From Blautia sp. (GTDB taxonomy: Bacteria > Bacillota > Clostridia > Lachnospirales > Lachnospiraceae): a stretch of DNA of 43,620 bases. The notes beneath the pieces are model-generated. The model was not told the origin of the DNA. It saw only the letters and a program-made list of their open reading frames with translations, and made no database searches. A program made the position numbers and the translations under genes. Of the stretch, positions 2,281 to 21,118 are shown in pieces. How positions within the stretch are numbered: position 1 is the stretch's first letter; every line of letters begins with the position of its first letter. The DNA lies in NCBI GenBank assembly GCA_017463155.1, contig JAFTPT010000050.1, positions 1 through 43,620 on the forward strand, read 5' to 3'.

Positions 2281-2296
2281 TTGCGCCGGCGCAATT
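2281..2296. repeat. Dispersed palindrome copy 1, TTGCGCCGGCGCAATT
   Basis: A 14-bp perfect palindrome (TTGCGCC/GGCGCAA) with a TT extension on one side. It sits between a terminator and the ribosome site of the holin gene. Identical copies lie at 8269, 10524, 17998 and 21103, all in the same orientation and only in the prophage. The function is unknown; see findings. Confidence 0.9.
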
Positions 2297-2302
2297 AAGC
2301 AC

Positions 2303-2328
2303 ATAATAAAAGGACCGTTTCCGGTCCT
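2303..2328 (-). terminator. Intrinsic terminator upstream of the holin gene
   Basis: On the minus strand AGGACCG-GAAA-CGGTCCT forms a hairpin with a GNRA-type loop, followed by TTTATTAT. It would stop late transcription before the lysis genes unless transcription is made terminator-resistant. Confidence 0.8.
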
Positions 2329-2381
2329 GCTCTGATCAGCATCTTCATGCGCCTCCATTTCTTTCTTCATGCACACATATA

Positions 2382-2540
2382 TCAGTGATGATCTGTCTTC
2401 ACTTTCTCTTTATCAATCAAGCAATACAGCTGCGTCGTGTCCAGATCCTCATGGCCGAGGATTGGGCTACCTCCTCAATCGGCATGCCTTTATAACGCAC
2501 ATAATTTATCGCGTTACCTCGTGATCGGTAGTGCGTTATA
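2382..2540 (-). pseudogene. C-terminal fragment of a tyrosine recombinase, frameshifted
   Basis: In one minus frame the text is YVRYKGMPIEEVAQ. One base is then missing, and the next frame continues LGHEDLDTTQLYCLIDKEK and stops at 2382-2384. The joined text matches the end of tyrosine recombinases (the LGHxxLDTTxxY block with the catalytic tyrosine). The upstream catalytic region is absent or degenerate. This is not the active integrase, which is intact at 22237-23304. It is probably left over from another mobile element that inserted in the structural gene region and was then deleted with it. Confidence 0.65.
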
Positions 2541-2707
2541 TTCCACTTTAGCGAACGGCAAAGGGGCGGATATTGGCGATATAAGATACAAAATGAACAA
2601 CTATCGTATTGGTTAAGAGCGAGGTTTGTGACTTCCCTTCGGAGAATTATCAGTTGATGTTGAGCCTCAAACTTAGACGTGTTTCTTTTACTTTTTACTA
2701 CGCTCAT
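2417..2707 (-). pseudogene. Chimeric ORF: N-terminus of an MSVVKSKR-type protein joined to recombinase debris
   Basis: The first ~35 codons (2707 down to about 2602) begin MSVVKSKR and continue TSKFEAQHQLIILRREV, behind a near-perfect ribosome site (GGAGGTGAATT). From memory, proteins with this start are small helical proteins found near reverse transcriptases of phage diversity-generating systems. The rest of the frame is unrelated and runs into the recombinase fragment at 2382-2540. I take it as a deletion scar. The N-terminal family assignment is tentative; no reverse transcriptase or template repeat is visible here. Confidence 0.5.
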
Positions 2708-2764
2708 AATTCACCTCCTTCCTATTCATAAGTTTTTTATTGTAGTTCATATGTAACCTCTCTT

Positions 2765-3364
2765 TCATCGCCTTGCGGCATTCCTGATTGCGTCGTTGAT
2801 CGACGTGTTCTTACTTCCTGTGCTGCCTTCAGAACCGGATGCCGAGGAAGTGGATACCCTGTATCCGTTTCCTGTAAAACGCGGATTCTCCTTCAGGAAT
2901 TTGTCCGCGGCCTTCTTGAAATCAGTCTTGTCATCCATCAGCTGCTTCGCCTTGAACATGACATAGTCCAAGTCCTCGGTTTTGATGTTCTTATCCCGCA
3001 GGTAGTCTTTGTTATCCCGCTCCTCCAGCTGCGCTTTGTACTGGTCGCGCTCTTTCTCTATCGCGCTCGCATCCGGCTGTCTGGCTGCCTTGTCCTTCTT
3101 GTACTGTTCGAGGGCTGCTGCCGCTTCCTGTTCAGACAACCCCTGCTGCTGAAAATAGCTTTTCAGTGCCGCCTTGGAGGCCCTGTCAGCCCTGCTGGTC
3201 GCGATCTCGTCAAGCTGTTCATATGTAAAAGTTCCTCCGGTGTTCTCCCGGCCACCGTTGCCGGATCCGGCGTTTCCCTGGCCGCCGTTGCCAGTTCCGG
3301 CGTTCTGACCGCCGTTTCCTCCTTCATCAAACAGATGCAGGTTCATCATTTTTCTGTAGTTCAT
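2765..3364 (-). CDS. Phage capsid scaffolding protein
   Basis: A 199-aa protein with a Gly/Asn-rich N-terminal segment (repeats of GNGGQ type, residues about 13-42), then a long charged, predicted coiled-coil region (about 50-140) and a Ser/Gly-rich C-terminus. This is the usual build of phage scaffold proteins (GP20/DUF4355-like), which guide procapsid assembly around the major capsid protein. Its place after portal and minor capsid genes agrees. The start at 3364 is chosen because CGGAGGAGAAT precedes ATG; a longer frame starts at 3460 without a good site. The major capsid gene that normally follows is missing. Confidence 0.8.
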   Translation of the reverse strand: MNYRKMMNLHLFDEGGNGGQNAGTGNGGQGNAGSGNGGRENTGGTFTYEQLDEIATSRADRASKAALKSYFQQQGLSEQEAAAALEQYKKDKAARQPDASAIEKERDQYKAQLEERDNKDYLRDKNIKTEDLDYVMFKAKQLMDDKTDFKKAADKFLKENPRFTGNGYRVSTSSASGSEGSTGSKNTSINDAIRNAARR

Positions 3365-3427
3365 ATTCTCCTCCGTTTTAGGTGCGATAACCCTCAGTGC
3401 TTTTAGAGCCTTCATGGTTTGGGCATA

Positions 3428-3453
3428 AATAAAACCGCCTCCAAAGAGACGGT
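3428..3453 (-). terminator. Intrinsic terminator after the Prp-like gene
   Basis: On the minus strand ACCGTCTC (3453-3446) pairs with GAGGCGGT (3441-3434), with one T-G pair, followed by TTTATTTAT. The stem overlaps the stop of the Prp-like gene and lies just before the scaffold gene. Confidence 0.75.
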
Positions 3454-3737
3454 CAGACAAACGTTATGCAATTATACTGTTCATTGATCCTGCAGATACC
3501 CAGGAACCAGGTGTCAATAAGAATCTTGCCCTTGTCGGACAGCTTCTGCCATTCGATTATGGTCGTTCCGCTGCCGGTGTCGGCGCGGATCCGGTTGTCG
3601 GTCAGCTCCTGCAGTCCCATGATCAGGGTGCAGGTGAGCGCTGAGATCGCGCTGCAGACGATGTCCTGGCCGTTGATGCTGCATCCTGCATGGCCTTGCA
3701 TCCGGATTATGTTTTCTCTGATCATTACAGTGATCAC
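3453..3737 (-). CDS. Prp-like cysteine protease (YsxB family), phage copy
   Basis: A 94-aa protein with the signature of the Prp/YsxB family: GHAGCSINGQDIVCSAISAL, giving H16 and C28 as the catalytic pair. Host Prp trims the N-terminus of ribosomal protein L27 in Bacillota. Phage copies encoded beside head genes are thought to process head proteins, and this one sits directly before the scaffold gene. A GTG start at 3737 is preferred because GGATGGAGGG lies 6 bp upstream; a longer ATG frame (3779) overlaps the previous gene's terminator. Which protein it cleaves cannot be told from the sequence, since the major capsid gene is lost. Confidence 0.8.
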   Translation of the reverse strand: MITVMIRENIIRMQGHAGCSINGQDIVCSAISALTCTLIMGLQELTDNRIRADTGSGTTIIEWQKLSDKGKILIDTWFLGICRINEQYNCITFV

Positions 3738-3758
3738 GGTAATCCCTCCATCCGGGTA

Positions 3759-3790
3759 TAAAAATACCACCAGCATCACTTACTGGTGGT
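3759..3790 (-). terminator. Intrinsic terminator after the TM/PLD-like gene
   Basis: On the minus strand ACCACCAG (3790-3783) pairs with CTGGTGGT (3773-3766), followed by ATTTTTAT. The stem contains the end of the TM/PLD-like gene. Confidence 0.8.
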
Positions 3791-4507
3791 TAATGCATCT
3801 TCGCAAAACTCTGGATTATTCCATAGCTCATTGAAATAGTCGCTATAATACTCATACGCTGTTCCGAAGTTGTTATACTCAAATGATAACGTCTGTTGGC
3901 TCTGCTTATGGAACAAATATGGGCCTGTAAACAACCTATTGTTCATCAAAAACAGGAAATTCTGCGGCTGATGTGTGTGGTAGCGAATTGCTATCTTCCC
4001 CTTGTATTTTCTTGAATTCAGCCTCTTAGCCCATGCTATCAAGGATTCTATATCATTTGACATTTGCCCTGGGATCTGATCCTCGTCTGCTTCCCGCTGG
4101 GCCAGATTCTCGCACCCTGGCTTCATGGTGATTATCCGTATCATTCCACCACTTCGCAGTATGTTTTCAATAGCTTTTTCTTGAGAATCCCGCCATGATC
4201 TAAGCCCAAACGCAATGATATCAATCGACTTCGCTTTTTTGAGATAATAGTCACAGCTTTTATTCATCTCTCCGCGTGTTCGGTATACTCCTTCTAGCCC
4301 CCATTTTCTGGCCTCTCCTTGATCTCCTGTTCCCATTAGAACATCGGTCAGAAAAACTATGATCGCAGAGGCCAAGACGGAGACTCCGATGTCGGCGAGA
4401 ATTCCTCTTGTGGTCTGATCCACGATGATCAAGGCCAGTCCAACCAGGGCAATGATAATCTCTACAAGCGTCGCATTTTTCCTGATATATTTCCTTAATG
4501 CTTTCAT
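3776..4507 (-). CDS. Two-TM protein with phospholipase D-like C-terminal fold, cargo gene
   Basis: A 243-aa protein. Residues about 12-32 and 37-57 are hydrophobic and read as two membrane helices; the remainder is soluble. The soluble part has the strand texts IDIIAFGLRSW and RIITMKPG, and an ending like YYSDYFNELW, which recall PLD-like (HKD superfamily) domains that sit behind membrane anchors in some bacterial stress or defence proteins. A canonical HxKxxxxD motif is not visible, so enzymatic activity is doubtful. The gene is visibly more AT-rich than portal and terminase and lies between two terminators inside the late region, as cargo genes often do. The start follows AAAGGAGAAGGCGG. 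The role is unknown; superinfection exclusion or abortive infection is a guess. Confidence 0.55.
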   Translation of the reverse strand: MKALRKYIRKNATLVEIIIALVGLALIIVDQTTRGILADIGVSVLASAIIVFLTDVLMGTGDQGEARKWGLEGVYRTRGEMNKSCDYYLKKAKSIDIIAFGLRSWRDSQEKAIENILRSGGMIRIITMKPGCENLAQREADEDQIPGQMSNDIESLIAWAKRLNSRKYKGKIAIRYHTHQPQNFLFLMNNRLFTGPYLFHKQSQQTLSFEYNNFGTAYEYYSDYFNELWNNPEFCEDALTTSK

Positions 4508-4524
4508 CCGCCTTCTCCTTTATT

Positions 4525-4552
4525 AAAAACACCACCACCGCATGGGTGGTGG
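4525..4552 (-). terminator. Intrinsic terminator after the small ORF
   Basis: On the minus strand CCACCACC (4552-4545) pairs with GGTGGTGG (4539-4532), followed by TGTTTTTAATA. It closes the minor capsid / small ORF pair and directly precedes the ribosome site of the TM/PLD-like gene. Confidence 0.8.
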
Positions 4553-4604
4553 CAAATGCGCTGTCCTTCCAAAGATCGCCCGGCTCAGGTTTCTCTCTTT
4601 AAGA

Positions 4605-4778
4605 TTACTCCCGTATACCTCTAGCATGAAGGGCCTCTAACCTATTATGCTCTGCTGCTGCCATTGCAAGAAATCTAGGAGACGCGTGTTGCTCAATATA
4701 CTCCGAAAATTCAATTTCTCTATCGTCTTTCATGAAGGCTTCATATAGCCCCTGCAATTCTCTCTTCCACCATTCCAT
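4605..4778 (-). CDS. Small protein coupled to the capsid-metallopeptidase gene, candidate immunity protein
   Basis: A 57-aa frame beginning MEWWKRELQGLYEAF and ending HARGIRE. The ribosome site AGAAGGAT overlaps the stop codon of the upstream minor capsid gene, so translation is probably coupled. Composition is AT-rich like the 3' third of that gene and unlike its 5' part, suggesting both were acquired together. Small acidic proteins directly downstream of toxin-like domains are often immunity proteins. That role is inference from position alone; I do not recognise the family. Confidence 0.55.
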   Translation of the reverse strand: MEWWKRELQGLYEAFMKDDREIEFSEYIEQHASPRFLAMAAAEHNRLEALHARGIRE

Positions 4779-4782
4779 ATTA

Positions 4783-8063: not shown

Positions 8064-9435
8064 CTTCTTCCTCCCTGTCCAGCGGATTCATCCACTCTTC
8101 CTCTTTTTCCGTCTCCGGGAGCCAGCGCTTCACCTTGCTCCAGGCTCCCATTACCATGTACCGGATTGCGTCCATGCAATGATCATTTTCCTTTACCGGT
8201 ACTTCCTTTCCCTTCTCTATGGACTTTTTGTCATATTCATACGTGCCGAACTCGTCAATGGCATTCTTTTGCGCCGGCGCAATTTTGAGAATGTCATAGG
8301 TCAGACATTTCTGCACCCGGCTGATCCCAAGTGCAACATCATTCTCTGCCTTCTTCAGATGTACGGCAAAGGGAAGGGACAAATCCCTCACCTTTCTGCG
8401 GACCTCTTCCATGAGTCCTGCTGCCGACGGATCCAGATACATATAAAACACCGTCGCCCCATACTTTTCATGTACATCTTCCATCAGCCGGATCGCCTCC
8501 ATGGCATATTCAGCCGGCGTCTTCTGCTTCCCGCTGTCCCGGCCGCTGTGGTAGAATTCACCGCATCCCCGGAGGCGCCTCTCATAGGTGTCCAGAAGAA
8601 ATGCCTCATATGTTGTAGCGTTCAGCTGCCCGTAGTCGCCACCGATATAGCAGGTTTTGAATGTCCTGTCTCCCGGTGGCTTCTCCTTGTGCCGATCCGA
8701 AAACATGTAGTAGATCGCTTCGTCGATGCCGACCGGAACTCCCAGCCACACCCAGCGGTATTGCCTCTCATCCGCCCGCTTCAAGGCCTCTGCCGATGCG
8801 ATCAGGTCATCTCCCAGCCACTCTGCCGGCACGTCCCTGTAATCCGTATGGATGTGGATCACATCGTCTCTCTGTTCCATCTCGCGGCACCACTTATTGA
8901 TCGCCGCGTTCGGATTCTTCGGTGGATTGTACAGATAGATCATCTGGAACCCGGACCGGTTCCCTCTTACGAAGGTCGCTTCAATATTCTGCAGTTCATC
9001 TGCTCCCTCGCCGTCATCAAAGAATTCCGTCAGCTCGTCCAGGATCACCAGCTTGATCGGATGCTCCTCGTCAATAATGCCCTTCGTGTCATCAATGCCG
9101 TCTGATCCTGCGAAATACATGGTTGCCCCGGTCTTCAGGTATGTGATCTCCATGGGCGACTTCGTGATCAGGAACTTCGATTTTGGAATCCCCAGACGGT
9201 TGATCCCACGCAGCATCTCTTTGTACACGGTCTTCCGCAGCTTATTATGCCGCTTACGCAGGACGATCACGCTGGCGTCCGGATCGGAAACCAGTGTGAA
9301 GTCTCCTCTGATCGCCGCAAAGCTGGACTTCGTCCCGGCCCGGCCGGACGTCAGGATAATATGCTTGATCCGCCGGTTATTGAAAACCTGCAGATATTTA
9401 TCGATCACTATCTCCGAAATCCTGACCTGGCGCAT
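8050..9435 (-). CDS. Terminase large subunit
   Basis: A 461-aa packaging motor of the PBSX-like terminase family. The N-terminal ATPase has a Walker A-like GRAGTKSS (residues about 31-38) and a Walker B, LVILDEL. The C-terminal RNase H-like nuclease has acidic residues in YIGGDYGQLNATT, FYMYLDPSAAG and KENDHCMDAIRY. The start overlaps the small subunit by 38 bp. Dispersed palindrome copy 2 (8269-8284) lies inside the coding sequence and is translated as KIAPAQ in minus frame, so the sequence is kept in spite of coding demands. Confidence 0.92.
   Translation of the reverse strand: MRQVRISEIVIDKYLQVFNNRRIKHIILTSGRAGTKSSFAAIRGDFTLVSDPDASVIVLRKRHNKLRKTVYKEMLRGINRLGIPKSKFLITKSPMEITYLKTGATMYFAGSDGIDDTKGIIDEEHPIKLVILDELTEFFDDGEGADELQNIEATFVRGNRSGFQMIYLYNPPKNPNAAINKWCREMEQRDDVIHIHTDYRDVPAEWLGDDLIASAEALKRADERQYRWVWLGVPVGIDEAIYYMFSDRHKEKPPGDRTFKTCYIGGDYGQLNATTYEAFLLDTYERRLRGCGEFYHSGRDSGKQKTPAEYAMEAIRLMEDVHEKYGATVFYMYLDPSAAGLMEEVRRKVRDLSLPFAVHLKKAENDVALGISRVQKCLTYDILKIAPAQKNAIDEFGTYEYDKKSIEKGKEVPVKENDHCMDAIRYMVMGAWSKVKRWLPETEKEEEWMNPLDREEEDDDF
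8269..8284. repeat. Dispersed palindrome copy 2, within the terminase large gene
   Basis: An exact copy of TTGCGCCGGCGCAATT in the same orientation as the others. Being inside a conserved gene, it cannot be a simple intergenic relic. Confidence 0.9.
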
Positions 9436-9901: not shown

Positions 9902-9939
9902 CCGGCTCACCTTCCTATCCTGTATTCTGTTTTAAGCAG

Positions 9940-9970: not shown

Positions 9971-9991
9971 CCGCTAAAGGGGTACTTTCAT

Positions 9992-10021: not shown

Positions 10022-10029
10022 GTAATAAT

Positions 10030-10523: not shown

Positions 10524-10539
10524 TTGCGCCGGCGCAATT
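10524..10539. repeat. Dispersed palindrome copy 3
   Basis: TTGCGCCGGCGCAATT in the gap between the relE terminator and the late regulator gene. As with copy 1, it follows directly after a terminator in the direction of transcription. Confidence 0.9.
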
Positions 10540-10542
10540 TTC

Positions 10543-10578
10543 CAAAACAAAATGGGCGCTGCATATTGCGCAACGCCC
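10543..10578 (-). terminator. Terminator of the relBE module
   Basis: On the minus strand GGGCGTTGC (10578-10570) pairs with GCAGCGCCC (10562-10554), with one T-G pair, followed by ATTTTGTTTT. Confidence 0.75.
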
Positions 10579-10584
10579 TTCCTG

Positions 10585-10857
10585 CTATCTTCGATATACT
10601 TCTCTTCTATGCCCGATCCTGATCACATGAATGACTATCTCCTCATCATGGATCACTGCCAATACGCGGTAATCTCCGATTCTGTATCTCCATTTGCCGC
10701 TTTTATCTGCCGTCAGCCCTTTTCCATGTGCCCTTGGATCTGTACATCCGACAAGATTCTTCTGGATCCATCCGAGGATCATCTTCTGTGTGGCCTTATC
10801 CATCTTCTTGAGTTGTTTAACGGCCTCCGGAGCATAATCCACCCTATATTCACTCAT
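10585..10857 (-). CDS. relE: RelE/ParE-type toxin
   Basis: A 90-aa basic protein beginning MSEYRVDYAPEAVKQLKKMD, with a C-terminal WRYRIGDYRVLAVIHDEEI and HRREVYRR. This is the RelE fold, a ribosome-dependent mRNA endonuclease; the conserved basic and tyrosine residues of the active site (R in WRYRIGDYR, final R/Y) are present. It overlaps the antitoxin gene upstream by 8 bp. With its own promoter and terminator the pair is a free-standing module in the phage, probably for maintenance or phage competition. Confidence 0.88.
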   Translation of the reverse strand: MSEYRVDYAPEAVKQLKKMDKATQKMILGWIQKNLVGCTDPRAHGKGLTADKSGKWRYRIGDYRVLAVIHDEEIVIHVIRIGHRREVYRR

Positions 10858-11074
10858 CTGTCTCCAGCATCCTCCAAACTTCCTCCTGGGAATAGGTCAC
10901 CGGGTTCTTTCTCCATTCCTCGATAGCCTTATCTAATTCAGCCAGGTCAAATTCGTCTTCGATCTTCTCCAGCATGGCACGTCTGGCGAAATCAGATACT
11001 GAAATACCGTGCAGTTTTGAATATTTCTTGATAAGTGTCAGATCCTCATCTGATATTCTCACGGAAATAGCCAT
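10850..11074 (-). CDS. relB: RelB-type antitoxin, ribbon-helix-helix
   Basis: A 74-aa protein. The N-terminus MAISVRISDEDLTLIKKYSK, with HGISVSDFARRAML, is a ribbon-helix-helix DNA-binding domain; the acidic C-terminus (FDLAELDKAIEEW) would wrap the toxin. The start at 11074 follows AGGGGGTGTGATAG; the upstream frame is not used. It should repress its own promoter at 11100-11127, where ATACAATGTAT is palindromic. Confidence 0.85.
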   Translation of the reverse strand: MAISVRISDEDLTLIKKYSKLHGISVSDFARRAMLEKIEDEFDLAELDKAIEEWRKNPVTYSQEEVWRMLETDE

Positions 11075-11099
11075 TCTATCACACCCCCTGCTGTAATAC

Positions 11100-11127
11100 A
11101 TTGTATCACACTGGCAGTCTTTGTCAA
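11100..11127 (-). promoter_or_regulatory. relBE promoter and operator
   Basis: On the minus strand TTGACA (11127-11122), 16 bp, then TACAAT (11105-11100). The -10 lies in the odd palindrome ATACAATGTAT, a likely RelB operator. It makes relBE independent of the late and early promoters. Confidence 0.75.
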
Positions 11128-11169
11128 GCGTTGCCCAATATGCAGTTGCCAAGGTTCATGCTCCGGCTT

Positions 11170-11831: not shown

Positions 11832-12027
11832 GATCCATCCCCTCCTTCGGCACCCAGAACGGACAGGATCCGCATAAGTGTTTGGGCGTCAGTAAGATCC
11901 CTTTGACCATAGAGGTCTGCCGGCAGGTCGGCTCCACAAATACCGCGTACTGTCCGATCGATTTCACGTGTATACATGTCTCATACCGCGGTTTCTCATC
12001 CTTCCGGGAACTCTTCTTCGCCGACAT
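11821..12027 (-). CDS. Small cysteine-rich phage protein
   Basis: A 68-aa protein, MSAKKSSRKDEKPRYETC onward, with four cysteines (C18, C35, C52, C55; the last two as CGSC) that could hold one zinc. The start follows GGAGAGGACATGT and overlaps the gene upstream by 32 bp. Function not recognised; its position in the early block suggests a role in host takeover or DNA metabolism. Confidence 0.6.
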   Translation of the reverse strand: MSAKKSSRKDEKPRYETCIHVKSIGQYAVFVEPTCRQTSMVKGILLTPKHLCGSCPFWVPKEGMDLDR

Positions 12028-12772
12028 ACATGTCCTCTCCTTTCTCCGGTTCCGGCTCTCCTTTCTCGTATCTCTTGCAGTTGACGGCCGGGCATCCCCT
12101 CATATGCCCGGTGATCCCGATGTAGTTGCAGGTTCCATGGTCTGTGTTCGTCGTCCTGTAACGGCAGTCTTTGCATGGAATATGCTCCTCATCCATTTTG
12201 TGGCGCTTGTTCCATCCGGCAACTGTCGAGATGGCAACACCGAAATGCTTCGCTATCTCCCGCTGGCTCTTCCCTGCTGCCAGCAGTTTTAGCATCTCTT
12301 CATCATCGATCTTTGCATTCTTCGGCTTCCCTTTCCTGGCCTTCCTGGGCTTTTCCTCCGGATTTTGGGCACTTTCATCCTCAGTCTGGGCACTTTCAAC
12401 CTCTGTTTGGACACTTTCGCCCTCTGTTTGAGTACTTCCATCCTCGGTTTGGGTATTTTCACCCTCAGGCATCTCGATCGGGCCATCAAAAACCACCATC
12501 GGCTCCTGTTCCTCTTTCAGCTCATCTTCAATAAGTTCCATGATGTCCTTCGCCAGCCCACGGATCGGAAGCTCCCCTGACCTTTCATTTTCCAGATCCG
12601 GTTCTTCAAACTCACCAATGAGTCTGATGCCCTCAAAAAGATCATCCAGAATCAGTCCTAACGGGACCAGCTGCTGCCGGCCTTGTTCATCCTTATCCGG
12701 AAGGATGGCCCGGATATCCGCCCCTCTTGCATATTCTTTTAAAGCTCTTTCTGCCTCCAGCTCCTTCAGCAT
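11996..12772 (-). CDS. Helix-turn-helix and cysteine-cluster protein with seven-residue QTE repeats
   Basis: A 258-aa protein. Residues 1-105 are acidic and helical; about 106-137 form four to five seven-residue repeats around the core QTE, encoded by 21-bp units at 12366-12470. Then a basic stretch (KARKGKPKNAK), a helix-turn-helix (GKSQREIAKHFGVAISTV), and a cysteine-rich C-terminus (PCKDCRY, GTCNY, GCPAVNC) that likely binds zinc. It is probably a sequence-specific DNA-binding protein. The start at 12772 follows AAGGAGGAAGAACAG. The exact function is unknown. Confidence 0.65.
   Translation of the reverse strand: MLKELEAERALKEYARGADIRAILPDKDEQGRQQLVPLGLILDDLFEGIRLIGEFEEPDLENERSGELPIRGLAKDIMELIEDELKEEQEPMVVFDGPIEMPEGENTQTEDGSTQTEGESVQTEVESAQTEDESAQNPEEKPRKARKGKPKNAKIDDEEMLKLLAAGKSQREIAKHFGVAISTVAGWNKRHKMDEEHIPCKDCRYRTTNTDHGTCNYIGITGHMRGCPAVNCKRYEKGEPEPEKGEDMYVGEEEFPEG
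12366..12470. repeat. Five 21-bp tandem repeats inside a coding sequence
   Basis: Units at 12366, 12387, 12408, 12429 and 12450, consensus TGGGCACTTTCACCCTCTGTT on average, encode the QTE repeats. The frame-preserving length suggests slippage-driven variation in repeat number. Confidence 0.8.
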
Positions 12773-13215: not shown

Positions 13216-14538
13216 TTATTCCGTATAACCCACGCCTTCCGTATCGTCTGTATAATCCGTCACCTTGATGCCCAGAATGCAATACCCCTCCTCGAGGCCT
13301 GCGTAGTCTTCAAGCATGTAGGCGATATCCGCATGGATCAGTCTTCCTGTCTCTATACCTTCCTTGAATTCCACCATTTCCAGCATATGGCCGGTCCTGT
13401 ACCCGCGGTCATTCTTACGCAGTTCAAACGTCTTCCGACCCGAAAGAACGTCGTCATAATAGGAGGATGCCAGGCGGATCCTGTGCACCTTCGTTCCTTC
13501 ATCACTTGGAAGATGCTCCATCTTTTCAGCGTCTTCCCGTTCCCGGAGCTTCGCCCTGGTTTCCCGGTCGATCCGATCCTGCTCCGCGTTGTATTTCTGT
13601 TCTTCCGTCATTTCATGGCTTTGTGCAGGCGCATTCATGCGCTCCGGTCCTATCTCTTCCGGAACTTCCTGCCCTGCTGCCGGCGGCTGTCCTGCTGCCG
13701 GATCCTGCGCTTCAGGCGCCGGCGGCATGACCTCCGGGTGGTTCTCGATCGAATCCTGCCCCGGGATCTGATCATCTTCCTCACCAAAGCAGCTTTTCCA
13801 GGTGATCTGCCCCGGGATATCCTCGAATATTTCCTTCATTCGTTCAAAGAATTCATGCCATGTCAGTGTTTTGGGGCTTTCTCCGAACCGGTTGATCATA
13901 AGGCCTTTTTCATAGCCATAGAAGATCAGGAACCTGGTCTCCTTGCGGAAATGCATACTTCCGGAAGGGTTGATCAGTTCCGCCATGCCCTTTTCATCAC
14001 CTTCGGCATATTCACGGCTGGCAAACAGTTCGTCCATGATCTCCGGATTTGCCCGGAAAAATTCCTTGACCGCGATGCCGAAATCATCTTCCGGATCTTT
14101 CATCCAGTTCATCAGGTTCTCCGGATTCCCGTCATTCTCTTTCTGGAAAGCTTTGAATTCCCTGATCGTCTCCCTCTTGACCTCCGGCTGGAACATGGCC
14201 TGGTCTTCCTCGCTGATCTGCAGAAGTTCTGTCAGCTGGGAGAAATTGTATTCCCTGTATTGCTCCTTGAGAGCCGGTGTGTCCCCCTCTACCGAGTACC
14301 GCTCATAGACTTCCATGAACCGCGACACCCCTGACGGTGTCATGCCATATTCCGCTTTTGCAAATTCCGCGATCGTCTTGTAGCCGTCAAGCTGGTATGC
14401 TTCGGACCGGTTGATCCTGGACAGCTGCCAGCCTACCCTTACAAAGCTTTTTACGATCCCGCTCAGATCCTTCTTGATCTCTTCCTTAGCCTCCCTGTAC
14501 TGTCCCAGGTCCATTGTCAGCTGTGTGTATTCTTCCAT
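13216..14538 (-). CDS. Phage protein with C-terminal ASCH/DUF3850 domain
   Basis: A 440-aa protein. The N-terminal ~110 residues (AKEEIKKDLSGIVKSFVRVG, then AKAEYGMTPSGVSRFMEVY) look like a ParB/DUF3102-type DNA-binding regulator. A Pro/Ala-rich linker follows. The last ~85 residues (HRIRLASSYYDDVLSGRKTF, ELRKNDRGYRTGH, EGYCILGIKV) match DUF3850, an ASCH-like RNA or nucleotide binding fold common in phages. The start at 14538 follows CAGGAGGTAGAACA. The joining of the two parts in one polypeptide suggests a regulator that senses or binds RNA; this is inference. Confidence 0.7.
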   Translation of the reverse strand: MEEYTQLTMDLGQYREAKEEIKKDLSGIVKSFVRVGWQLSRINRSEAYQLDGYKTIAEFAKAEYGMTPSGVSRFMEVYERYSVEGDTPALKEQYREYNFSQLTELLQISEEDQAMFQPEVKRETIREFKAFQKENDGNPENLMNWMKDPEDDFGIAVKEFFRANPEIMDELFASREYAEGDEKGMAELINPSGSMHFRKETRFLIFYGYEKGLMINRFGESPKTLTWHEFFERMKEIFEDIPGQITWKSCFGEEDDQIPGQDSIENHPEVMPPAPEAQDPAAGQPPAAGQEVPEEIGPERMNAPAQSHEMTEEQKYNAEQDRIDRETRAKLREREDAEKMEHLPSDEGTKVHRIRLASSYYDDVLSGRKTFELRKNDRGYRTGHMLEMVEFKEGIETGRLIHADIAYMLEDYAGLEEGYCILGIKVTDYTDDTEGVGYTE

Positions 14539-14542
14539 TGTT

Positions 14543-14902: not shown

Positions 14903-14906
14903 CCCC

Positions 14907-16979
14907 TTATACTGCTGCCATGATCCGGATCCGCGTAGCCGCTGCCTTTTTCTTGATCCGTTTATCTACCTCGCGGCTGTATCCGGCCATGAAGTCCGTC
15001 ACTTCCTTCGGCGGTTGTGAGTTCCGGACTGCCCTGCACTGGATAATCCTGCTGCCGTCCATCTCAACGGTACAGAAGGCTTTGTCCGGCTCTTCTTTCC
15101 TGCGGAGGAACAGGACAACACTTTCTCCTTTCAGCATTTTGTCAAAATAGCTGCCGCCTACGCAGTTGTGGTTTTCCCTTCCTTCACGGTTGAAATCCTC
15201 CTTGCAGGTCGGCAGAACCATCAGATAGCCCTCATTCTTCGTTCCTTCATAGATCTCCCGGAGCTCCGGCAGCATTCCCTGCAGGATCCGGTCTTTCTCC
15301 GCGATCCTCCTGATCTTCAGTTCCTGCTCACGTTCCTGCCGCTGTTCAGACAGCCGCTCATGGGCCGCCTGGAAATTCCTTGGAAAGATCACGTCGTTCG
15401 TCGGTTCCACCTTCAGCACGCGGATATCATCAAGATAATCCACATAGTCCAAAACTGCTGTTTTCTGCTGCTTCTGCAGTACCTGCAGATACTTCATCAT
15501 TTTATCGGGATGGCCATACCACAGCAGCCGGCCTGTAACCTGTGCCCCCGCTTCACTCGCATACCATTCCACCTGCTGCCTTGTCAGCCTGATCTCAAGC
15601 ATCCTGGCCGCCTGAAGGGTAAGGAGCTGCCGTTCCGAGATATTCATCCGGATGCACATTTCCAACTGCTGCCGGTCTATCCACAACGCTTCCCATGGCT
15701 TTCTCTTTTGGAAATTCACACCCCTGTTGTCTCCCGGTTTTCCTCGGTATGTAAGGTCCCACGCCAGGCGATACAGCTTCAGCTTGATCAGGTATTCCAT
15801 CTGTGGAGTCTTCCGCAGTCCATACAGCTGGTCGATCACATAGCTGTAGCATCCCTCATTGTGCCGGAAGAGATCCTCGATCGGGATATACTGTAATTCC
15901 GTTCCTCTTCGAAGCCTCCGCAGGTTCCGATAGTACAGGATGCATTCATCTGTCGGGCCCTCATAATACCCATGGTTTATTGCAGAGCACCATCGAAGCT
16001 CATTCTCATACCTGTTTTTGAAATGCGCCCATTCATAGATTCCCTCCGGTTCAAAATTCCTGCTTAGAAAAAAGCGGTATTTCTCGCAGAGCAGGGAATC
16101 CTTCGTGCTCAGCTTGTAGTCTCCGCCCTTCCATCTTTTGATCTTGCTCTCAAAGATCCGGAGGACGTATCCGTTCCCGTCCTTCCTTTCCTGCAGGATC
16201 CCTGGCTTCTTCCAGTCCGTGATCTGTCCCTGCTTGTTCCAGGACAACGCGATCACTTTCTTTCTGCAGGCCGGGCATCGGACCATTTCCTGATGCTTTA
16301 CCTGCCGCGGCAGTTTCACATTCCTTCCACAGAGCGTGCACCAGCCTTTATGTTCTTTATCGCCATAGCGGTACAGCATATACTGTGATCTTGAATAAGC
16401 TGACTTATATACCCAGTCCTCAAAGTCCTTCGGAAGAGGCGGTACCTGCTCCATGGCCTGGTCGATCCGTGCTTTTTCTTTCTGATGGCGTCCTTTCAGG
16501 CGTTTGATCTGCAAGATCTGCTGGTAGCTCTTGATCGCCTGGAATACATTCACATCATTCCAGCCAAAATACTGGTTCACAAGCATTCTCGCCCCTTCTT
16601 CCTCCCACAGCTCCATCGTGCAGTTATCGAAGCACCGGTTCCATCTTGGCCCGTCATGTGGGATCGGCTGACTGCCAATCTGTCCTCCTGACCACTTGTT
16701 TTCCATGGGAAGGTATGTCAGGTGTTTCTCCTCTCCGGCAGATACATACACCTCATACCTTGGCCGACGTTCTCCTTCCTTCATGTCCTTCCTGCAGAAG
16801 AATGCCACCTTCAGGATCCCGTCCTCGATGCGGACACGAACAAACAGCTCCCGGAACACTTTTCGCTCCGACGCCCAGGAATAAATCTTCCTTTTCCGGC
16901 CCCTGTCCCGCCTTGCTGCCGCGATCATCTCATCCGTCGCCAGCAGCTCCGGCATGGCCAGCAGATCCCTCTTCTTCAT
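14907..16979 (-). CDS. PcfJ-like protein
   Basis: A 690-aa protein. Near residues 215-245 is a CTLCG...RCPACRK zinc ribbon. The C-terminal region has the PcfJ signature NHNCVGGSYFDKM, then VVLFLRR, CTVEMDG and IIQCRAVRNSQPP. PcfJ-domain proteins were named from the enterococcal plasmid pCF10 and are common in Clostridia plasmids, ICEs and phages; their biochemical role is not established. It overlaps the AcrIIA9-like gene upstream by 4 bp, a pairing I recall from other elements. Length and frame are intact. Confidence 0.8.
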   Translation of the reverse strand: MKKRDLLAMPELLATDEMIAAARRDRGRKRKIYSWASERKVFRELFVRVRIEDGILKVAFFCRKDMKEGERRPRYEVYVSAGEEKHLTYLPMENKWSGGQIGSQPIPHDGPRWNRCFDNCTMELWEEEGARMLVNQYFGWNDVNVFQAIKSYQQILQIKRLKGRHQKEKARIDQAMEQVPPLPKDFEDWVYKSAYSRSQYMLYRYGDKEHKGWCTLCGRNVKLPRQVKHQEMVRCPACRKKVIALSWNKQGQITDWKKPGILQERKDGNGYVLRIFESKIKRWKGGDYKLSTKDSLLCEKYRFFLSRNFEPEGIYEWAHFKNRYENELRWCSAINHGYYEGPTDECILYYRNLRRLRRGTELQYIPIEDLFRHNEGCYSYVIDQLYGLRKTPQMEYLIKLKLYRLAWDLTYRGKPGDNRGVNFQKRKPWEALWIDRQQLEMCIRMNISERQLLTLQAARMLEIRLTRQQVEWYASEAGAQVTGRLLWYGHPDKMMKYLQVLQKQQKTAVLDYVDYLDDIRVLKVEPTNDVIFPRNFQAAHERLSEQRQEREQELKIRRIAEKDRILQGMLPELREIYEGTKNEGYLMVLPTCKEDFNREGRENHNCVGGSYFDKMLKGESVVLFLRRKEEPDKAFCTVEMDGSRIIQCRAVRNSQPPKEVTDFMAGYSREVDKRIKKKAAATRIRIMAAV

Positions 16980-17470
16980 TTCCCGGCGCCTCCCTGGTAG
17001 TATTCACGGATCAGGCGCCTGGCATCCCTGCTGCCCGGCACGCCGAAGTCTACGCGGCCGGCTGAGATCTTTGCCTCCTTTACGATTTCCTTATCTACCT
17101 GCTGCCGATTCGCGAAGGAATAAGCCAAGAGAGAAGCCATACAGCTTTTCAGGCGCTTCCCTTTTTTGCGGACAGCTGCTGCCATGTCCAGGTTTTCCAT
17201 AGTGAGCCCGCGGATATACTCGCACCAGTCCTCCATGAGTCCCTTCGGCTTCAGTTCCTCGCATTCCAGATCCAACTTCCCGTTGGCGGCCGTGATCTCA
17301 TCCGTCAGGAACGGGATCGCATTCCCCGTATACATCTCTACATACTCCTCCGGGATCCCGTTCTCCTTCGCCATGGTCTTTAATCCCTCAATGTCCCCTT
17401 CCTTCAGCAGGTTTTCAGCCCGCTCATTGATCTCCTTTGCGGAGTCCATCTCTCCAAACTTGTCAAACAT
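16976..17470 (-). CDS. AcrIIA9-family protein, candidate Cas9 inhibitor
   Basis: A 164-aa protein. The N-terminus MFDKFGEMDSAKEINERAEN, with LLKEGDIEGLKTMAKENGI, is acidic and helical. The C-terminal half (AAAVRKKGKRLKSCMASLL, RVDFGVPGSRDARRLIREYY) matches, from memory, the group annotated as Cas9 inhibitor AcrIIA9 family, frequently encoded directly before a PcfJ-domain gene as here. AcrIIA9 was found as an inhibitor of type II-A CRISPR. The start at 17470 follows AAAGGAGAAAAAGAA. Whether this homologue blocks Cas9 is untested, and the family may also have other roles. Confidence 0.65.
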   Translation of the reverse strand: MFDKFGEMDSAKEINERAENLLKEGDIEGLKTMAKENGIPEEYVEMYTGNAIPFLTDEITAANGKLDLECEELKPKGLMEDWCEYIRGLTMENLDMAAAVRKKGKRLKSCMASLLAYSFANRQQVDKEIVKEAKISAGRVDFGVPGSRDARRLIREYYQGGAGK

Positions 17471-17546
17471 TCTTCTTTTTCTCCTTTCCTGGCATGCCCG
17501 AAAGACAAGTTTCGGACAAGGAATCTTTCTGTTTTGCACGCTCTTT

Positions 17547-17699: not shown

Positions 17700-17710
17700 C
17701 CGGCAGCATT

Positions 17711-18094
17711 TCATTTGTACATGTCGAGATTTTCGTAGCGGTACCGGATCGCATGACCTTTCTGAAGCTGACGCAGTTCCTCCCAAAGATCCGCGTTCTT
17801 TACCGGTGCCCCGTTGGTCCTCCTCCATCCGTTCTGCTTCCACTGATCCAGCTGCCCCTGGCTCTGGATCAGGTAATTGCTCTCCGTCCATACGGTGATC
17901 AGGGACAGCTTCTTCATCCGCTTCAGGGCTTCAATCAGCGCGATCAGGACGACGCGGTTCCCGGTGGTGTCTTCCACCCTCCCGCTTCCCGTGATCTTTG
18001 CGCCGGCGCAATTCATGATGTATTTGAAGCCTGCTGCCTTTACCCTCTCCGGTCCTCTGGCCTTCGTAAGGATCATGATCGATACTTCCTGCAT
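17711..18094 (-). CDS. RNase H-like protein
   Basis: A 127-aa protein resembling the second half of RNase HI: RVVLIALIEALKRM with the helix-borne glutamate, LITVWTESNYLIQ at the strand where RNase HI has its catalytic aspartate (here TES rather than TDS), then WKQNGWRRTNG and KNADLWEELRQL. The substitutions suggest altered or lost nuclease activity; the substrate is unknown. It is encoded 1 bp after the HUH replication gene. Palindrome copy 4 is translated inside it as MNCAGAKI. Confidence 0.68.
   Translation of the reverse strand: MQEVSIMILTKARGPERVKAAGFKYIMNCAGAKITGSGRVEDTTGNRVVLIALIEALKRMKKLSLITVWTESNYLIQSQGQLDQWKQNGWRRTNGAPVKNADLWEELRQLQKGHAIRYRYENLDMYK
17998..18013. repeat. Dispersed palindrome copy 4, within the RNase H-like gene
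   Basis: An exact copy of TTGCGCCGGCGCAATT in the same orientation as the other four. Confidence 0.9.
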
Positions 18095-18856
18095 TTAATT
18101 CCTCCTTCTCTTCAGCCGGACCAGCGTGTAATGCCGGTACAGGTATCCCGTGACCGGGTTCACTCCCATCCGCACACTGTCCGGATCCACATAGTACCCC
18201 TTCCTGGCCGGCGGATACCGCATGTTTCCCTTCCGGTCCGCCAGGCTTCTCCTCCGGATCACATTGTCCTTCGGCTCCCTGCGGACCAGGTTCCTGGACG
18301 GATGGAAGCGCTTCAGGTCCAGAGGCTCCCATTCCTCCAGTGGTTTGGCTATATATTCCGCCAGTTCCTTGTATCCGCCGGCGTCATACGTCGGCCGTAT
18401 ATTCACATGGCCATAGCTCCAGCATTCCTGCAGGATGATGTCGGTGCCGGTCTGATCGTTCGCGAACCGATTCACAAGGACATGGACATGGGGACCGCCC
18501 TTCTTGCCGATCGCCAGCCTGTAGATATACTTCAGCTCTACTCCCTGTTTCCGGTACCTTCTCTTCACCTTCGCAAGCATATTCTGGACATGCTTCATCA
18601 TGACCCTGTGATCCGGCCTCTCTCCCTTCCGGTATGTCAGCGTCACCCAGTAATCCCTCTCACCAAAATTCCATTTGATCAATCTCCGGAGATCCCTCTC
18701 CCTCTTCCACTGGTTCTGTCTCCGGATGTCTTCAGGAGTCGGATCCTTCCTTCGGCTCCGCGGCTGCCCAGGTGCTCCATACCTTCCTGTGTGTTTTTCC
18801 TCAATCTCCAGGGTGTCCTCGAACTCCCATGTCTGTCTTATATACCCCCGCTCCAT
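18095..18856 (-). CDS. HUH-type replication initiation protein
   Basis: A 253-aa basic protein. Motif I-like YWVTLTYRKG (69-78), the HUH motif in GGPHVHVLV (H123, H125), and a tyrosine with lysine in LAEYIAKP (Y168, K171) are the three signatures of rolling-circle Rep endonucleases with a single catalytic tyrosine. Such proteins nick at an origin hairpin and stay covalently attached to the 5' end. No separate helicase or primase gene is visible in the prophage. Ribosome site GAGGTAGAGC. The candidate origin region at 17547-17699 is nearby. Confidence 0.78.
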   Translation of the reverse strand: MERGYIRQTWEFEDTLEIEEKHTGRYGAPGQPRSRRKDPTPEDIRRQNQWKRERDLRRLIKWNFGERDYWVTLTYRKGERPDHRVMMKHVQNMLAKVKRRYRKQGVELKYIYRLAIGKKGGPHVHVLVNRFANDQTGTDIILQECWSYGHVNIRPTYDAGGYKELAEYIAKPLEEWEPLDLKRFHPSRNLVRREPKDNVIRRRSLADRKGNMRYPPARKGYYVDPDSVRMGVNPVTGYLYRHYTLVRLKRRRN

Positions 18857-18924
18857 GCTCTACCTCGTGAACGTAACTCTAATACGCCTGATCAGGCTTT
18901 TAAGGGCTCCCGGAAAGCCCCAAA

Positions 18925-18964
18925 ATAAAAGGCCGTGAAAGCCTTTTCCCTTGACTTCACGGCC
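18925..18964 (-). terminator. Intrinsic terminator before the HUH rep gene
   Basis: On the minus strand GGCCGTGAA (18964-18956) pairs with TTCACGGCC (18939-18931), followed by TTTTATTTT. Its right arm overlaps the -35 box of the small RNA promoter on the other strand. Confidence 0.75.
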
Positions 18965-18980
18965 CGCAGCGGTATATAAT
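18951..18980 (+). promoter_or_regulatory. Promoter of the phage small RNA
   Basis: TTGACT (18951-18956), 18 bp, TATAAT (18975-18980). It points away from the early operon. Predicted start near 18986-18988. Confidence 0.75.
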
Positions 18981-18985
18981 GAACG

Positions 18986-19057
18986 TGTCAGAAATATACC
19001 CCTGACAGGCCGAAAGGCATCTGGCTCATGCGTTGCCCCGCATGAGCTTTTCTTTTG
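18986..19057 (+). ncRNA. Candidate phage small RNA, about 72 nt
   Basis: Between a sigma-A promoter and a terminator there are three consecutive hairpins and no sensible reading frame. They are TGTCAG/CTGACA (18986-18991 with 19002-19007, 10-nt loop), GCC-GAAA-GGC (19009-19018, GNRA loop), and GCTCATGC/GCATGAGC (19024-19031 with 19040-19047) followed by TTTTCTTTT. It runs opposite to the early operon in the gap between the HUH gene and a 49-aa ORF. I do not recognise the RNA. It may regulate phage or host mRNAs. Confidence 0.7.
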
Positions 19058-19059
19058 TC

Positions 19060-19209
19060 TCAGTGGATCTCATAGCTGCTGCCTCTGGCTCCCGCCCTGG
19101 CGGCCTCTTCCGCTTCCTCCCGGCTCCCCAGGCAGCTCTGCATCCGTCCGTCCGAATACCGGATGATCCAGATATTCAGATCTTTATTCTCTTCAGCTAT
19201 CCTTGACAT
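19060..19209 (-). CDS. Small hypothetical phage protein
   Basis: A 49-aa protein, MSRIAEENKDLNIWIIRYSD to EIH, with an alanine/glutamate-rich helix. Ribosome site GAGGAACG; the longer frame to 19290 lacks one. It converges with the small RNA. Function unknown. Confidence 0.55.
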   Translation of the reverse strand: MSRIAEENKDLNIWIIRYSDGRMQSCLGSREEAEEAARAGARGSSYEIH

Positions 19210-19517
19210 CGTTCCTCTGCTCCTCCATAATCTGTGTGCAGGCCTGACACCTCCGCGAGAATGGAGGTGAACGCCGATAAAGAAATACACCTATTCTTCG
19301 GAAGAGATGCAGTCTCTTCTGAAGGAGGGATGGACACTGCTCTCCATGAGCCGTTTTGTGAACGGATCAGGTGAGTGGCTGTTCATTCTCTCCAAATAAT
19401 TCTCTTCTGTAACCATCAACCCTGCATGCAGGCCTGCATGCGGCCCTGCCGGCTTCGCCCCCGGCGGGGCTTTCTTTATCGACGCTCAACTCCATCCTCG
19501 CGGAGGCTCTTTTCTCC
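19210..19517. other. 308-bp early-region gap with a strong palindrome and a plus-strand terminator
   Basis: There is no confident gene. A perfect 18-bp palindrome, GCATGCAGGCCTGCATGC, lies at 19424-19441. It is followed by a plus-strand hairpin GCCCTGCCGG (19443-19452) / CCGGCGGGGC (19461-19470) and TTTCTTT, an intrinsic terminator. Two minus-strand short frames (41 aa from MVTEENYLERMNSHSPDP; 42 aa from MELSVDKESPAGG) are possible but have weak ribosome sites. Confidence 0.5.
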
Positions 19518-19805
19518 TTATGGCATGATCCTGCTGACCTGGATCCAGGTCGTGTATGTCCTGTCTCGGTTCCGCATCCGGAATTCATGTGCGATCTCTT
19601 CCTGCTCCTCTTCCTCCAGTTCGGCCAGCCGCTCCTCTTCCAGGGATTTCAGATCCGCCATCCTGTACCCGATCGAGGCCATGAGCAGATTCATGAGCAG
19701 CAGGAACAAGACCAGTTCCCATGCCGGACTGTCCAGGGCACAGCCAGTCAGAACAACGCCAAATACTCCCGTGCAGAAAAGCACCCATCCGATCTTCATC
19801 TTCAT
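19518..19805 (-). CDS. Small membrane protein
   Basis: A 95-aa protein with two hydrophobic helices (about residues 5-22 and 29-47) and then an acidic coiled segment (SLEEERLAELEEEEQEEIAH). Ribosome site TAAGGAGGGAAAACA. It is 12 bp after the HTH gene. The shape fits a small phage membrane protein (exclusion or envelope stress), but no family is recognised. Confidence 0.6.
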   Translation of the reverse strand: MKMKIGWVLFCTGVFGVVLTGCALDSPAWELVLFLLLMNLLMASIGYRMADLKSLEEERLAELEEEEQEEIAHEFRMRNRDRTYTTWIQVSRIMP

Positions 19806-19817
19806 TGTTTTCCCTCC

Positions 19818-20198
19818 TTATGCGGTCCGCAGTCCTTCCAGCAGGATCTCGCGGATCAGCTGCTTGATCTCTTCTCTGTCGATCTTCGGTTCCTCTACTG
19901 CGGGACAGTCCCACTCCTTCATGGCCAGCTCCCGGATGATCTTCTTCGGATCATAGGGCGGCACCTGCCTGGACATGTTCTTGTCCCGCAGCTTCTCCCG
20001 GTTTCGCATGTAATCTGCAAACGCCGGCCTGTAGACCAGGACCAGGTTCGTCTGATCGATCACTGCAAGCTCTCCATACCGATCGCGGAGCTCTCGGAGC
20101 TCCTTTAACCTGGACTGAACCGTCTTGGACGTCAGGCTGAACTCCTCTGCAATCTCCTTCTGCTGCCTATACATCGCAGGACTCGGTCTTCTTGCCAT
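19818..20198 (-). CDS. Phage early regulator with helix-turn-helix
   Basis: A 126-aa protein, MARRPSPAMYRQQKEIAEEF, then SLTSKTVQSRLKELRELRDR, a helix-turn-helix; the middle RYGELAVIDQTNLVLVYRP may be a winged segment, and the C-terminus is helical and acidic (IDREEIKQLIREILLEGL). Ribosome site AAGGGGGTGCGAGTA. A second copy of the repressor operator (20237-20255) lies just upstream, so it is probably controlled by the repressor or Cro. It could be an antirepressor or excision control factor; this is not resolved. Confidence 0.6.
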   Translation of the reverse strand: MARRPSPAMYRQQKEIAEEFSLTSKTVQSRLKELRELRDRYGELAVIDQTNLVLVYRPAFADYMRNREKLRDKNMSRQVPPYDPKKIIRELAMKEWDCPAVEEPKIDREEIKQLIREILLEGLRTA

Positions 20199-20236
20199 TA
20201 CTCGCACCCCCTTCGCATGAATAATTAAACCCAATT

Positions 20237-20255
20237 GTCTAACATGTTGAACATT
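20237..20255. promoter_or_regulatory. Operator copy O2
   Basis: GTCTAACATGTTGAACATT, 18 of 19 bases identical to 20494-20512. It contains the palindrome AACATGTT. It lies between the Cro-like gene and the next early gene. Confidence 0.65.
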
Positions 20256-20446
20256 TAGCTTAAAAAAATTTCGCTTACTTTAAGCCCCAGAGCTTCGGCA
20301 ATCCGTGACAGAGTCTTTGTCGTTGTTACAGTAATAGAACCGTTCTCCAATCCAGAGATTATTGCACGGGATACACCTGATTTCTTGGACAACTGCTCCT
20401 GTGACATGCCAGCTCTTTCCCGGCTTTCTCTTATTCTATATTCCAT
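20255..20446 (-). CDS. Cro-like Xre family regulator
   Basis: A 63-aa single-domain HTH_3 protein: MEYRIRESRERAGMSQEQLS, then KKSGVSRAIISGLENG. It is the first gene of the minus-strand early operon, divergent from the repressor, as expected for Cro. The start at 20446 follows GGAGGTGATAAGA; the longer frame runs into the promoter. It should compete with the repressor for O1 and O2. Confidence 0.8.
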   Translation of the reverse strand: MEYRIRESRERAGMSQEQLSKKSGVSRAIISGLENGSITVTTTKTLSRIAEALGLKVSEIFLS

Positions 20447-20492
20447 TCTTATCACCTCCATTCGTGTTATGTCCACTATCCTGTACAATTGA

Positions 20493-20521
20493 AGTCTAAC
20501 ATGTTGTACATTGTTTGTCAA
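20493..20521 (-). promoter_or_regulatory. Early promoter with operator O1
   Basis: On the minus strand TTGACA (20521-20516), 17 bp, TAGACT (20498-20493). The operator GTCTAACATGTTGTACATT (20494-20512) covers the -10 and spacer, and GTACAA...TTGTAC forms a wider inverted repeat (about 20483-20510). Repressor bound here would silence the early genes. Confidence 0.65.
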
Positions 20522-20540
20522 CAGCTTTTGTTTAATTTAT

Positions 20541-20569
20541 TTGACATATAGCCAATGCAGTTGTATAAT
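20541..20569 (+). promoter_or_regulatory. Repressor promoter
   Basis: TTGACA (20541-20546), 17 bp, TATAAT (20564-20569): a consensus sigma-A promoter driving the repressor gene, divergent from the early promoter. Confidence 0.8.
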
Positions 20570-20603
20570 AAACTAAACAACTAGACTAAAAGGCGGTGAT
20601 TTA

Positions 20604-21050
20604 ATGACATTAGGAGATATTATAAAAAGATTCCGAGATGAGAAAGATATGAGTATGGACACCTTTTCTGAGAAGAGTGGTATAAGCAAAGCATATATAT
20701 CTATTTTAGAAAAGAATAAGCATCCGAAAACCGGAAAGCCCATTGCCCCCTCAATAGGCACAATTAAGCAGGCTGCTGATGGAATGGGACTAGATTTCAA
20801 TGTTCTATTTAATATGATAGATGGTGATGTTGATCTATCTTCTTCGTCTATCTCAGCGTCTCCGATGGATCAATGCTCTTCCGATCCCGTCCCCTCCGGC
20901 CTCCGGATCGATGAACAGGCTCTCCTCCGTAATTATAATCAGCTTAATGATGCCGGAAAAGAAAAGGCCCTCGAGTATGTCGAGGACCTCACTGGTAATT
21001 CGAAGTATGCTTCCGGCTCCTTCGAACCGGCAAAAAAAGAGATGGCATGA
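20604..21050 (+). CDS. Prophage repressor, Xre family
   Basis: A 148-aa protein with an N-terminal HTH_3 (DIIKRFRDEKDMSMDTFSEK, then GISKAYISILEKNKH) and a C-terminal helix YNQLNDAGKEKALEYVEDLT typical of short Gram-positive phage repressors. There is no LexA-like peptidase domain, so induction would not be by RecA-driven self-cleavage. Ribosome site AAAAGGCGGTGATTTA. It maintains lysogeny by binding O1 and O2. Confidence 0.8.
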   Translation: MTLGDIIKRFRDEKDMSMDTFSEKSGISKAYISILEKNKHPKTGKPIAPSIGTIKQAADGMGLDFNVLFNMIDGDVDLSSSSISASPMDQCSSDPVPSGLRIDEQALLRNYNQLNDAGKEKALEYVEDLTGNSKYASGSFEPAKKEMA

Positions 21051-21102
21051 ATCAATAATTAAATGTAAAGGGAAAATAGTTTTCTATGATTTTGGAAGAT
21101 GA

Positions 21103-21118
21103 TTGCGCCGGCGCAATT
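21103..21118. repeat. Dispersed palindrome copy 5
   Basis: TTGCGCCGGCGCAATT between the repressor gene and the candidate AbiF RNA promoter. Confidence 0.9.

Follow-up and report, generated by a model that had tools for sequence, protein, structure and literature searches.

The window analyzed here is a 43,620-nucleotide stretch of Blautia sp. DNA (Lachnospiraceae; contig JAFTPT010000050.1 of assembly GCA_017463155.1) containing a prophage in which the perfect 14-bp palindrome TTGCGCCGGCGCAA is found five times, between genes as well as within them (Table 1). The comparisons described below point to a ParB-like protein encoded by the same prophage as the probable binder of these sites.

The Palindromic Site in the Prophage and Its Host Genome

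An earlier note on this DNA, made from the sequence alone, had described five copies of a 16-bp palindrome, and all five were recovered at the positions it gave. The repeated unit is real, but its dyad spans 14 bp, the terminal TT lying outside it; because of this, and because relatives do not keep the TT, the shared orientation emphasized in the note is uninformative. Two copies do lie in coding sequence, and the two intergenic copies described as following a terminator do have one, on the minus strand. Allowing up to two mismatches, five copies are observed compared with a mean of 0.15 and a maximum of one in shuffled sequences, in keeping with the claim that chance recurrence is negligible. 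The reported absence from the flanking host DNA extends to the whole source genome (3,071,236 bases in 55 contigs), where the five prophage copies are the only exact matches and one further place matches with one mismatch.

Table 1. Sites and genes of the Blautia prophage discussed in the text (positions in the window).
Feature	Position	Strand	Remarks
Palindromic site 1	2281..2294	.	Between terminator 2328-2311(-) and holin Shine-Dalgarno sequence; holin start 22 nt away
Palindromic site 2	8269..8282	.	Within terminase large subunit gene, IAPAQ frame; same position in relative L156
Palindromic site 3	10524..10537	.	Past terminator 10578-10554(-); ArpU-like gene 39 nt further
Palindromic site 4	17998..18011	.	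Within RNase H-like gene, CAGA frame
Palindromic site 5	21103..21116	.	Intergenic; repressor gene ends 52 nt before
Terminator-like hairpin before site 1	2311..2328	-	
Terminator-like hairpin before site 3	10554..10578	-	
ParB-like protein, 440 aa, proposed binder	13216..14538	-	N-terminal helix-turn-helix (HTH) domain, linker, C-terminal DUF3850/ASCH-like domain
N-terminal 150 residues, taken as the domain	14089..14538	-	Helices 56-64 and 68-81 form the HTH; residue 68 is P
Holin gene directly behind site 1	1758..2258	-	phrog_199, holin
PcfJ-like protein	14907..16979	-	Same module as Rep
Small conserved module protein without family	16976..17470	-	
RNase H-like gene holding site 4	17711..18094	-	
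HUH-type Rep (REP_ORF2-G2P)	18095..18856	-	Same module as PcfJ-like protein

Exact copies of TTGCGCCGGCGCAA occur in 19 of 64 genomes of the host genus, Blautia, several of which have a cluster in one prophage-like region, and in 15 of 299 genomes of the family, while none was found in 24 genomes from other families of the order. The fetched loci, 967 kb of sequence mostly chosen for carrying the site or adjoining a locus that does, hold 50 exact copies and 10 copies with one mismatch; no other 14-bp palindrome in this DNA exceeds two copies (runs of N set aside), and 40 control palindromes of the same composition have zero copies. A scan of the IMG/VR database returned at least 120 stretches with the site, and 90 of 120 among the matches listed encode a protein similar to those of site-bearing prophages. 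The enrichment in related phages that the earlier note had proposed to look for is present, with clustered sites. A viral contig stretch of GC content 0.59 (L036) carries three exact sites in 11.7 kb and yielded no tblastn match to the proteins of site-bearing prophages.

A ParB-Like Protein as Candidate Binder

Thirty proteins of the prophage were compared by tblastn with 26 other site-bearing groups, many of which are short or partial contigs, and the proteins of 20 groups were clustered. Recurrent across the site-bearing groups are Rep, the PcfJ-like protein, the small module protein (16976-type) and the ParB-like protein. The repressor and the HTH/cysteine-cluster protein (11996–12772), both suggested as binders by the earlier note, have no tblastn match in any of the 26 groups; the latter clusters in seven of 20 groups, the window included. 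The repressor, of CI type, is left unsupported and was set aside as a binder, as were Rep, the PcfJ-like and the 16976-type proteins, which are correlated with the sites, yet sites persist where no match to any of them is found. Comparative evidence favors another of the note's four candidates, the ParB-like N-terminus of the 13216–14538 product.

Among 65 IMG/VR relatives of the prophage terminase, only one (L205) has the site, and it also carries a 53%-identical ParB-like protein; in 63 of the 65, neither a tblastn match to the window ParB-like protein nor an exact site was found within the sequence examined, so that phage kinship is separable from the site. Within the host genus, the site occurs in 10 of 11 genomes with a ParB-like match as opposed to 9 of 53 without. 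Across the family, a ParB-like match is found in 39 of 299 genomes, which include 10 of the 15 with the site; in seven of these 10 the site and the gene lie close together on one contig.

Site Classes Covary With the Protein

Elements with a ParB-like homologue but without TTGCGCCGGCGCAA were fetched for comparison, and they carry dispersed palindromes of related form. An element of genome G167 (L318 position 17000 to L319 position 20000), conjugative-looking by inspection and with a ParA gene directly before its ParB-like gene, has eight dispersed copies of GTGCGACGTCGCAC, seven of which are TGTGCGACGTCGCACA; four of the eight appear to lie directly behind a terminator-like T run. A phage with the Rep-PcfJ module (G275) has four TGTGCG-4-CGCACA sites, one within its ParB-like gene, and other ParB-like elements have GTTGCGAC or GTTGCACC half-sites. 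Elements carry up to eight sites, compared with five in the window.

A larger set of 175 distinct domains was then compiled, from which rows with an identical domain and eight loci without a domain match (second halves of split regions) had been removed; one locus (L302), which has an internal TAG, was left out of the domain profile. A site of these classes is present in 152 of the 175 ParB-like loci, seven of which hold more than one class, counting the split GTGCGA/GTGCGG locus L330 as one. Altogether the loci contain 306 class sites in 3.09 Mb, as opposed to five in 865 kb of 63 terminase loci without a protein match. When all 4096 arms of 6 nt were ranked by spread, TTGCGA (54 loci), TTGCGC (47), TTGCAC (45) and GTGCGA (12) came first, followed by TTTTTT (11). 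At most 26 of the 175 rows were fetched for carrying the site, so that any bias concerns the TTGCGC class only.

On the protein tree of the 147 labelled rows, site class changes 13 times, compared with 67–83 changes in 200 shuffles; the 28 rows without a single class label were omitted here, as they were from the mutual-information and residue-68 counts. The ParB-like gene itself holds a class site in 124 of 165 complete genes, at codons 121–356, and any palindrome past codon 105 is found in 142 of the 165 (221 palindromes, whereas codon shuffles give an expectation of 31.0). Of the 299 genomes, 11 contain TTGCACCGGTGCAA, a predicted class, and seven of these 11 are among the 39 with a protein match; one of the seven (G143) had itself suggested the class.

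Residues That May Read the Site

Residue 68 of the domain, noticed independently of the published work described next, was equated with residue 173 of the Caulobacter ParB by lining up, by hand, the G and V conserved in the HTH. At that position Q173 reads adenine 1 of the Noc-binding site (NBS), and ParB has R173, with guanine 1 in parS (PMC7383237). No other single column predicts site position 1 as well as column 68: arginine 68 accompanies G1 in 11 of 11 GTGCGA rows and in 1 of 136 other labelled rows. Natural proteins with arginine 68 and with glutamine 68 include those of L353 and L401, respectively. A count of palindromes within the proteins' own open reading frames (ORFs), taking one palindrome per ORF by a fixed rule that picked an unrelated palindrome in some genes (e.g., L355), paired R with G in 7 of 10 cases (others 6 of 132) and Q with A in 6 of 7 (others 4 of 135), the Q-A pattern having been noticed and counted on the same data. 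The R-G1 and Q-A1 pairings appear, by alignment, to match the published residue 173 code. Lysine 68 was rejected as a mark of TTGCGAC, as it also accompanies TTGCGCC (9 of 42) and TTGCACC (33 of 44).

Two further residues, 126 and 122, follow site positions 5 and 6, respectively. In the own-ORF count, R at residue 126 goes with G5 in 98 of 103 cases, and at residue 122 K or R goes with C6 in 72 of 78 and V or I with A6 in 51 of 57. Both residues are found where a helix begins that, by eye, matches helix 8 of ParB, which also contacts DNA (PMC7383237). The rows are related by descent, and no more than two independent pairs with support exist among them, each pointing in the expected direction; a mutual-information ranking of columns was set aside because it was dominated by phylogeny.

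Architecture and Relatives of the ParB-Like Protein

The HTH domain, whose fold counts among the support for the protein as binder, begins near residue 1 of the window protein, and PF02195 (ParB_N, the CTPase domain) has no match either in this protein or among 56 members of a further set (A6, N-domains only). Three ParA queries placed ParA immediately before the ParB-like gene in 4 of 175 loci, one of them conjugative-looking and the window not among them. Alignment with chromosomal ParB by hhalign gave no match, a PDB sequence search returned designed coiled-coil chains only, and a search of INPHARED gave two weak matches. Members of the family occur in phages and conjugative-looking elements of Lachnospiraceae and, probably, of other gut bacteria.

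In one site-bearing prophage (G028b; L184 2553–5217), the slot of the ParB-like gene holds ParA and a protein that matches ParB_N weakly and resembles the ParB-like proteins in its C-terminal part. The source genome (G000, 92% complete) shows no match to PF02195 or PF17762 (ParB), and PF17762 is present in all six other genus genomes tried.

Placement of Sites Relative to Genes

Across loci with a GC content of 0.545 or less, 45 of 129 distinct sites have a Shine-Dalgarno sequence and start within 40 nt on one side, compared with 10.4% of random positions; a second count gave 76 of 299, as opposed to 10.7% at random. Of the 45 start-proximal sites, 39 precede an ORF of at least 55 residues, and the usual order, as judged by inspection, is terminator, site, Shine-Dalgarno sequence and gene. 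A scan of ten ORFs from these 39, most picked for their resemblance to lysis genes, matched six to lysis families.

The remaining sites are mostly inside genes, in two reading frames (APAQ and CAGA). Within the RNase H-like gene, the codon position of the site varies from phage to phage, and the alignment shows no corresponding insertion, which argues for selection on DNA. Selection at the peptide level was rejected in view of the two frames, the roughly one third of sites located before gene starts and the non-homologous codons within one gene.

A Candidate Element-Wide Binder and Its Alternatives

In our view these palindromes are probably the cognate sites of the ParB-like protein, a KorB-like, element-wide binder. 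The protein would bind each 14-bp dyad as a dimer through its ParB/Noc-type HTH, with each lineage using its own palindrome in several copies over the element, usually including one in the gene behind the domain. It would occupy these dispersed sites across the element as KorB does on plasmid RK2, silencing or insulating transcription at gene starts, lysis and head genes included, and may also organize or segregate element DNA. The sites before the holin and head genes fit silencing or insulation, while the ParA neighbors and the own-gene site fit a partition origin.

KorB on RK2 offers, by analogy, the nearest working model. It is a ParB relative with operators dispersed over RK2, silencing genes near and far, and the title of a reference in the same paper counts 12 operator sites, O_B (PMC11790492). 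Both systems seem to pair a ParB-family protein of a mobile element with many operators over the element, near and far from promoters; KorB, however, is a CTPase clamp acting with KorA, whereas the ParB-like protein has no Pfam match to the CTPase domain (ParB_N). That domain was likewise not found here in contrast to Noc, whose sites are chromosomal rather than on a phage. With ParB/Spo0J, the system seems to share class-specific palindromes that covary with the domain, and it differs in the missing ParB_N match, the few genes with ParA beside them and the lack of a sequence-level match. Judged from sequence, the system looks like the dispersed sites of KorB and Noc without the CTPase domain.

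A broader proposition is offered more tentatively, as a possibility short of probable: an undescribed, CTPase-less and mostly ParA-less ParB-like family on gut phages and conjugative elements, whose members each have their own dispersed palindrome, usually with a copy in their own gene, and use the ParB/Noc code (R-G1, Q-A1), would silence lysis and head genes across the element, partition machinery having become a phage-wide regulator. If true, this would identify the target of a conserved phage protein of “function unknown,” make operator sequences for a large class of gut mobile elements directly available, provide an evolutionary series of protein-site pairs showing specificity switches, and open to testing the route by which ParB-type proteins took on phage-wide regulation without a CTP clamp. 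No paper came up in a full-text search for four of the palindromes, and none of the papers listed by topic searches describes such a system in its title or abstract, subscription journals and preprints lying outside the coverage of both.

Several observations weigh against the ParB-like protein as binder. Sixteen of 27 site-bearing groups have no domain match (11 do), four regions of 60–80 kb among them, and 9 of 19 site-bearing genus genomes lack a ParB-like match. Phages with the site and without the protein include G028a, G066 and G083_1. Among the IMG/VR site stretches listed, a domain match is present in only 15 of 82 of low GC content, most of them partial, in 5 of 30 low-GC stretches of at least 10 kb, and in 1 of 38 of high GC content. 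Conversely, the DNA read from G078 and G014-C3 encodes the protein and shows no palindrome of this kind, and the ParB-like gene of the window has no intact site of its own. Sites without the protein may stem from incomplete stretches or contigs, from exchange of modules, from a different binder or, in high-GC phages, from chance. They also lend substance to the idea that an unknown host or trans-acting factor reads the sites while the ParB-like gene is merely co-inherited, which we regard as unlikely given that site class switches with protein clade, that the specificity residues covary with the site and that most ParB-like genes carry a site within themselves. A reading that keeps the same protein and sites is possible, though on balance doubtful: they would serve segregation, condensation or packaging only, in a parS or centromere role without gene regulation, start proximity resulting from scarce non-coding DNA. 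A parS site of Bacillus subtilis lies inside spo0J, which the site in the ParB-like gene resembles, and the four loci with ParA upstream, one of them conjugative-looking, the Rep gene in the module and the 84 of 129 sites not near a start accord with such a role; against it stand the rarity of matches to the three ParA queries beside these genes, with none in the window, and the excess of start-proximal sites over random positions in both counts.

Other proteins of the prophage appear considerably less likely as binders. Operators or stoperators of the prophage CI-type repressor would be dispersed, near gene starts, behind terminators and absent from the rest of the host genome, as these sites are. 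The stoperators of mycobacteriophages number 20 to 30 per temperate phage genome, as dispersed repressor sites whose motif varies among phages; they are 13–14 bp long, lack dyad symmetry, follow the direction of transcription and are the binding sites of the immunity repressor (PMC6550527). The dispersal over a temperate phage is shared, but TTGCGCCGGCGCAA is a perfect palindrome and stoperators are asymmetric and oriented. The general idea of dispersed regulator or partition sites put forward in the earlier note fits; its likeness to stoperators fails on this defining feature. As the identical site also occurs in prophages without a homologue of the window repressor (the 26 groups, many partial), repressor operators are very unlikely. 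We hold it equally improbable that the sites are origin, lagging-strand or nick sites for the HUH-type Rep, or serve another protein of the Rep-PcfJ module, even though a strong Rep match is accompanied by TTGCGCCGGCGCAA in 10 of 11 genus genomes and the site occurs in 9 of 53 others: 74 of 82 ParB-like loci without a Rep match still have sites, as do 24 of 112 loci of at least 15 kb without a match to Rep, PcfJ, the 16976-type protein or ParA, and the eight-site element L318-L319 lacks a Rep or PcfJ match (diverged homologues could escape tblastn). Slightly less credible still are recombination or module-boundary sites promoting phage mosaicism, which would explain sites between modules and in the linker behind the domain swapped for a ParB-type one in G028b, but neither the shifting codons in the RNase H-like gene, with no matching insertion, nor the covariation of site class with the DNA-binding domain. 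An RNA element, a hairpin before the ribosome site, can be nearly dismissed: the site is often just upstream of a Shine-Dalgarno sequence and two other classes fold somewhat better than shuffles (z about -2.2), yet the window site does not (z -0.75; 0.36 with flanks), Rfam over 1–23700 gives one tRNA only, many copies lie within genes, and a loop would not need the fixed central CG.

Other Features of the Prophage

The contig begins at window position 1, and within 1–3400 a scaffold gene (2765–3364) is followed by the holin gene, with no recognizable major capsid or tail genes between them; the missing capsid and tail region would correspond to either a defective prophage or a collapsed assembly. 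The integrase gene adjoins a tRNA-Leu gene (23487–23573; window 22237–23573), a likely attachment site. The early region contains a 36-nt inverted repeat (19250–19285 and 19471–19506, 89% complementary and 185 nt apart), and an apparent RelE/RelB-like toxin-antitoxin pair (10585–11152) adjoins the ArpU-like gene.

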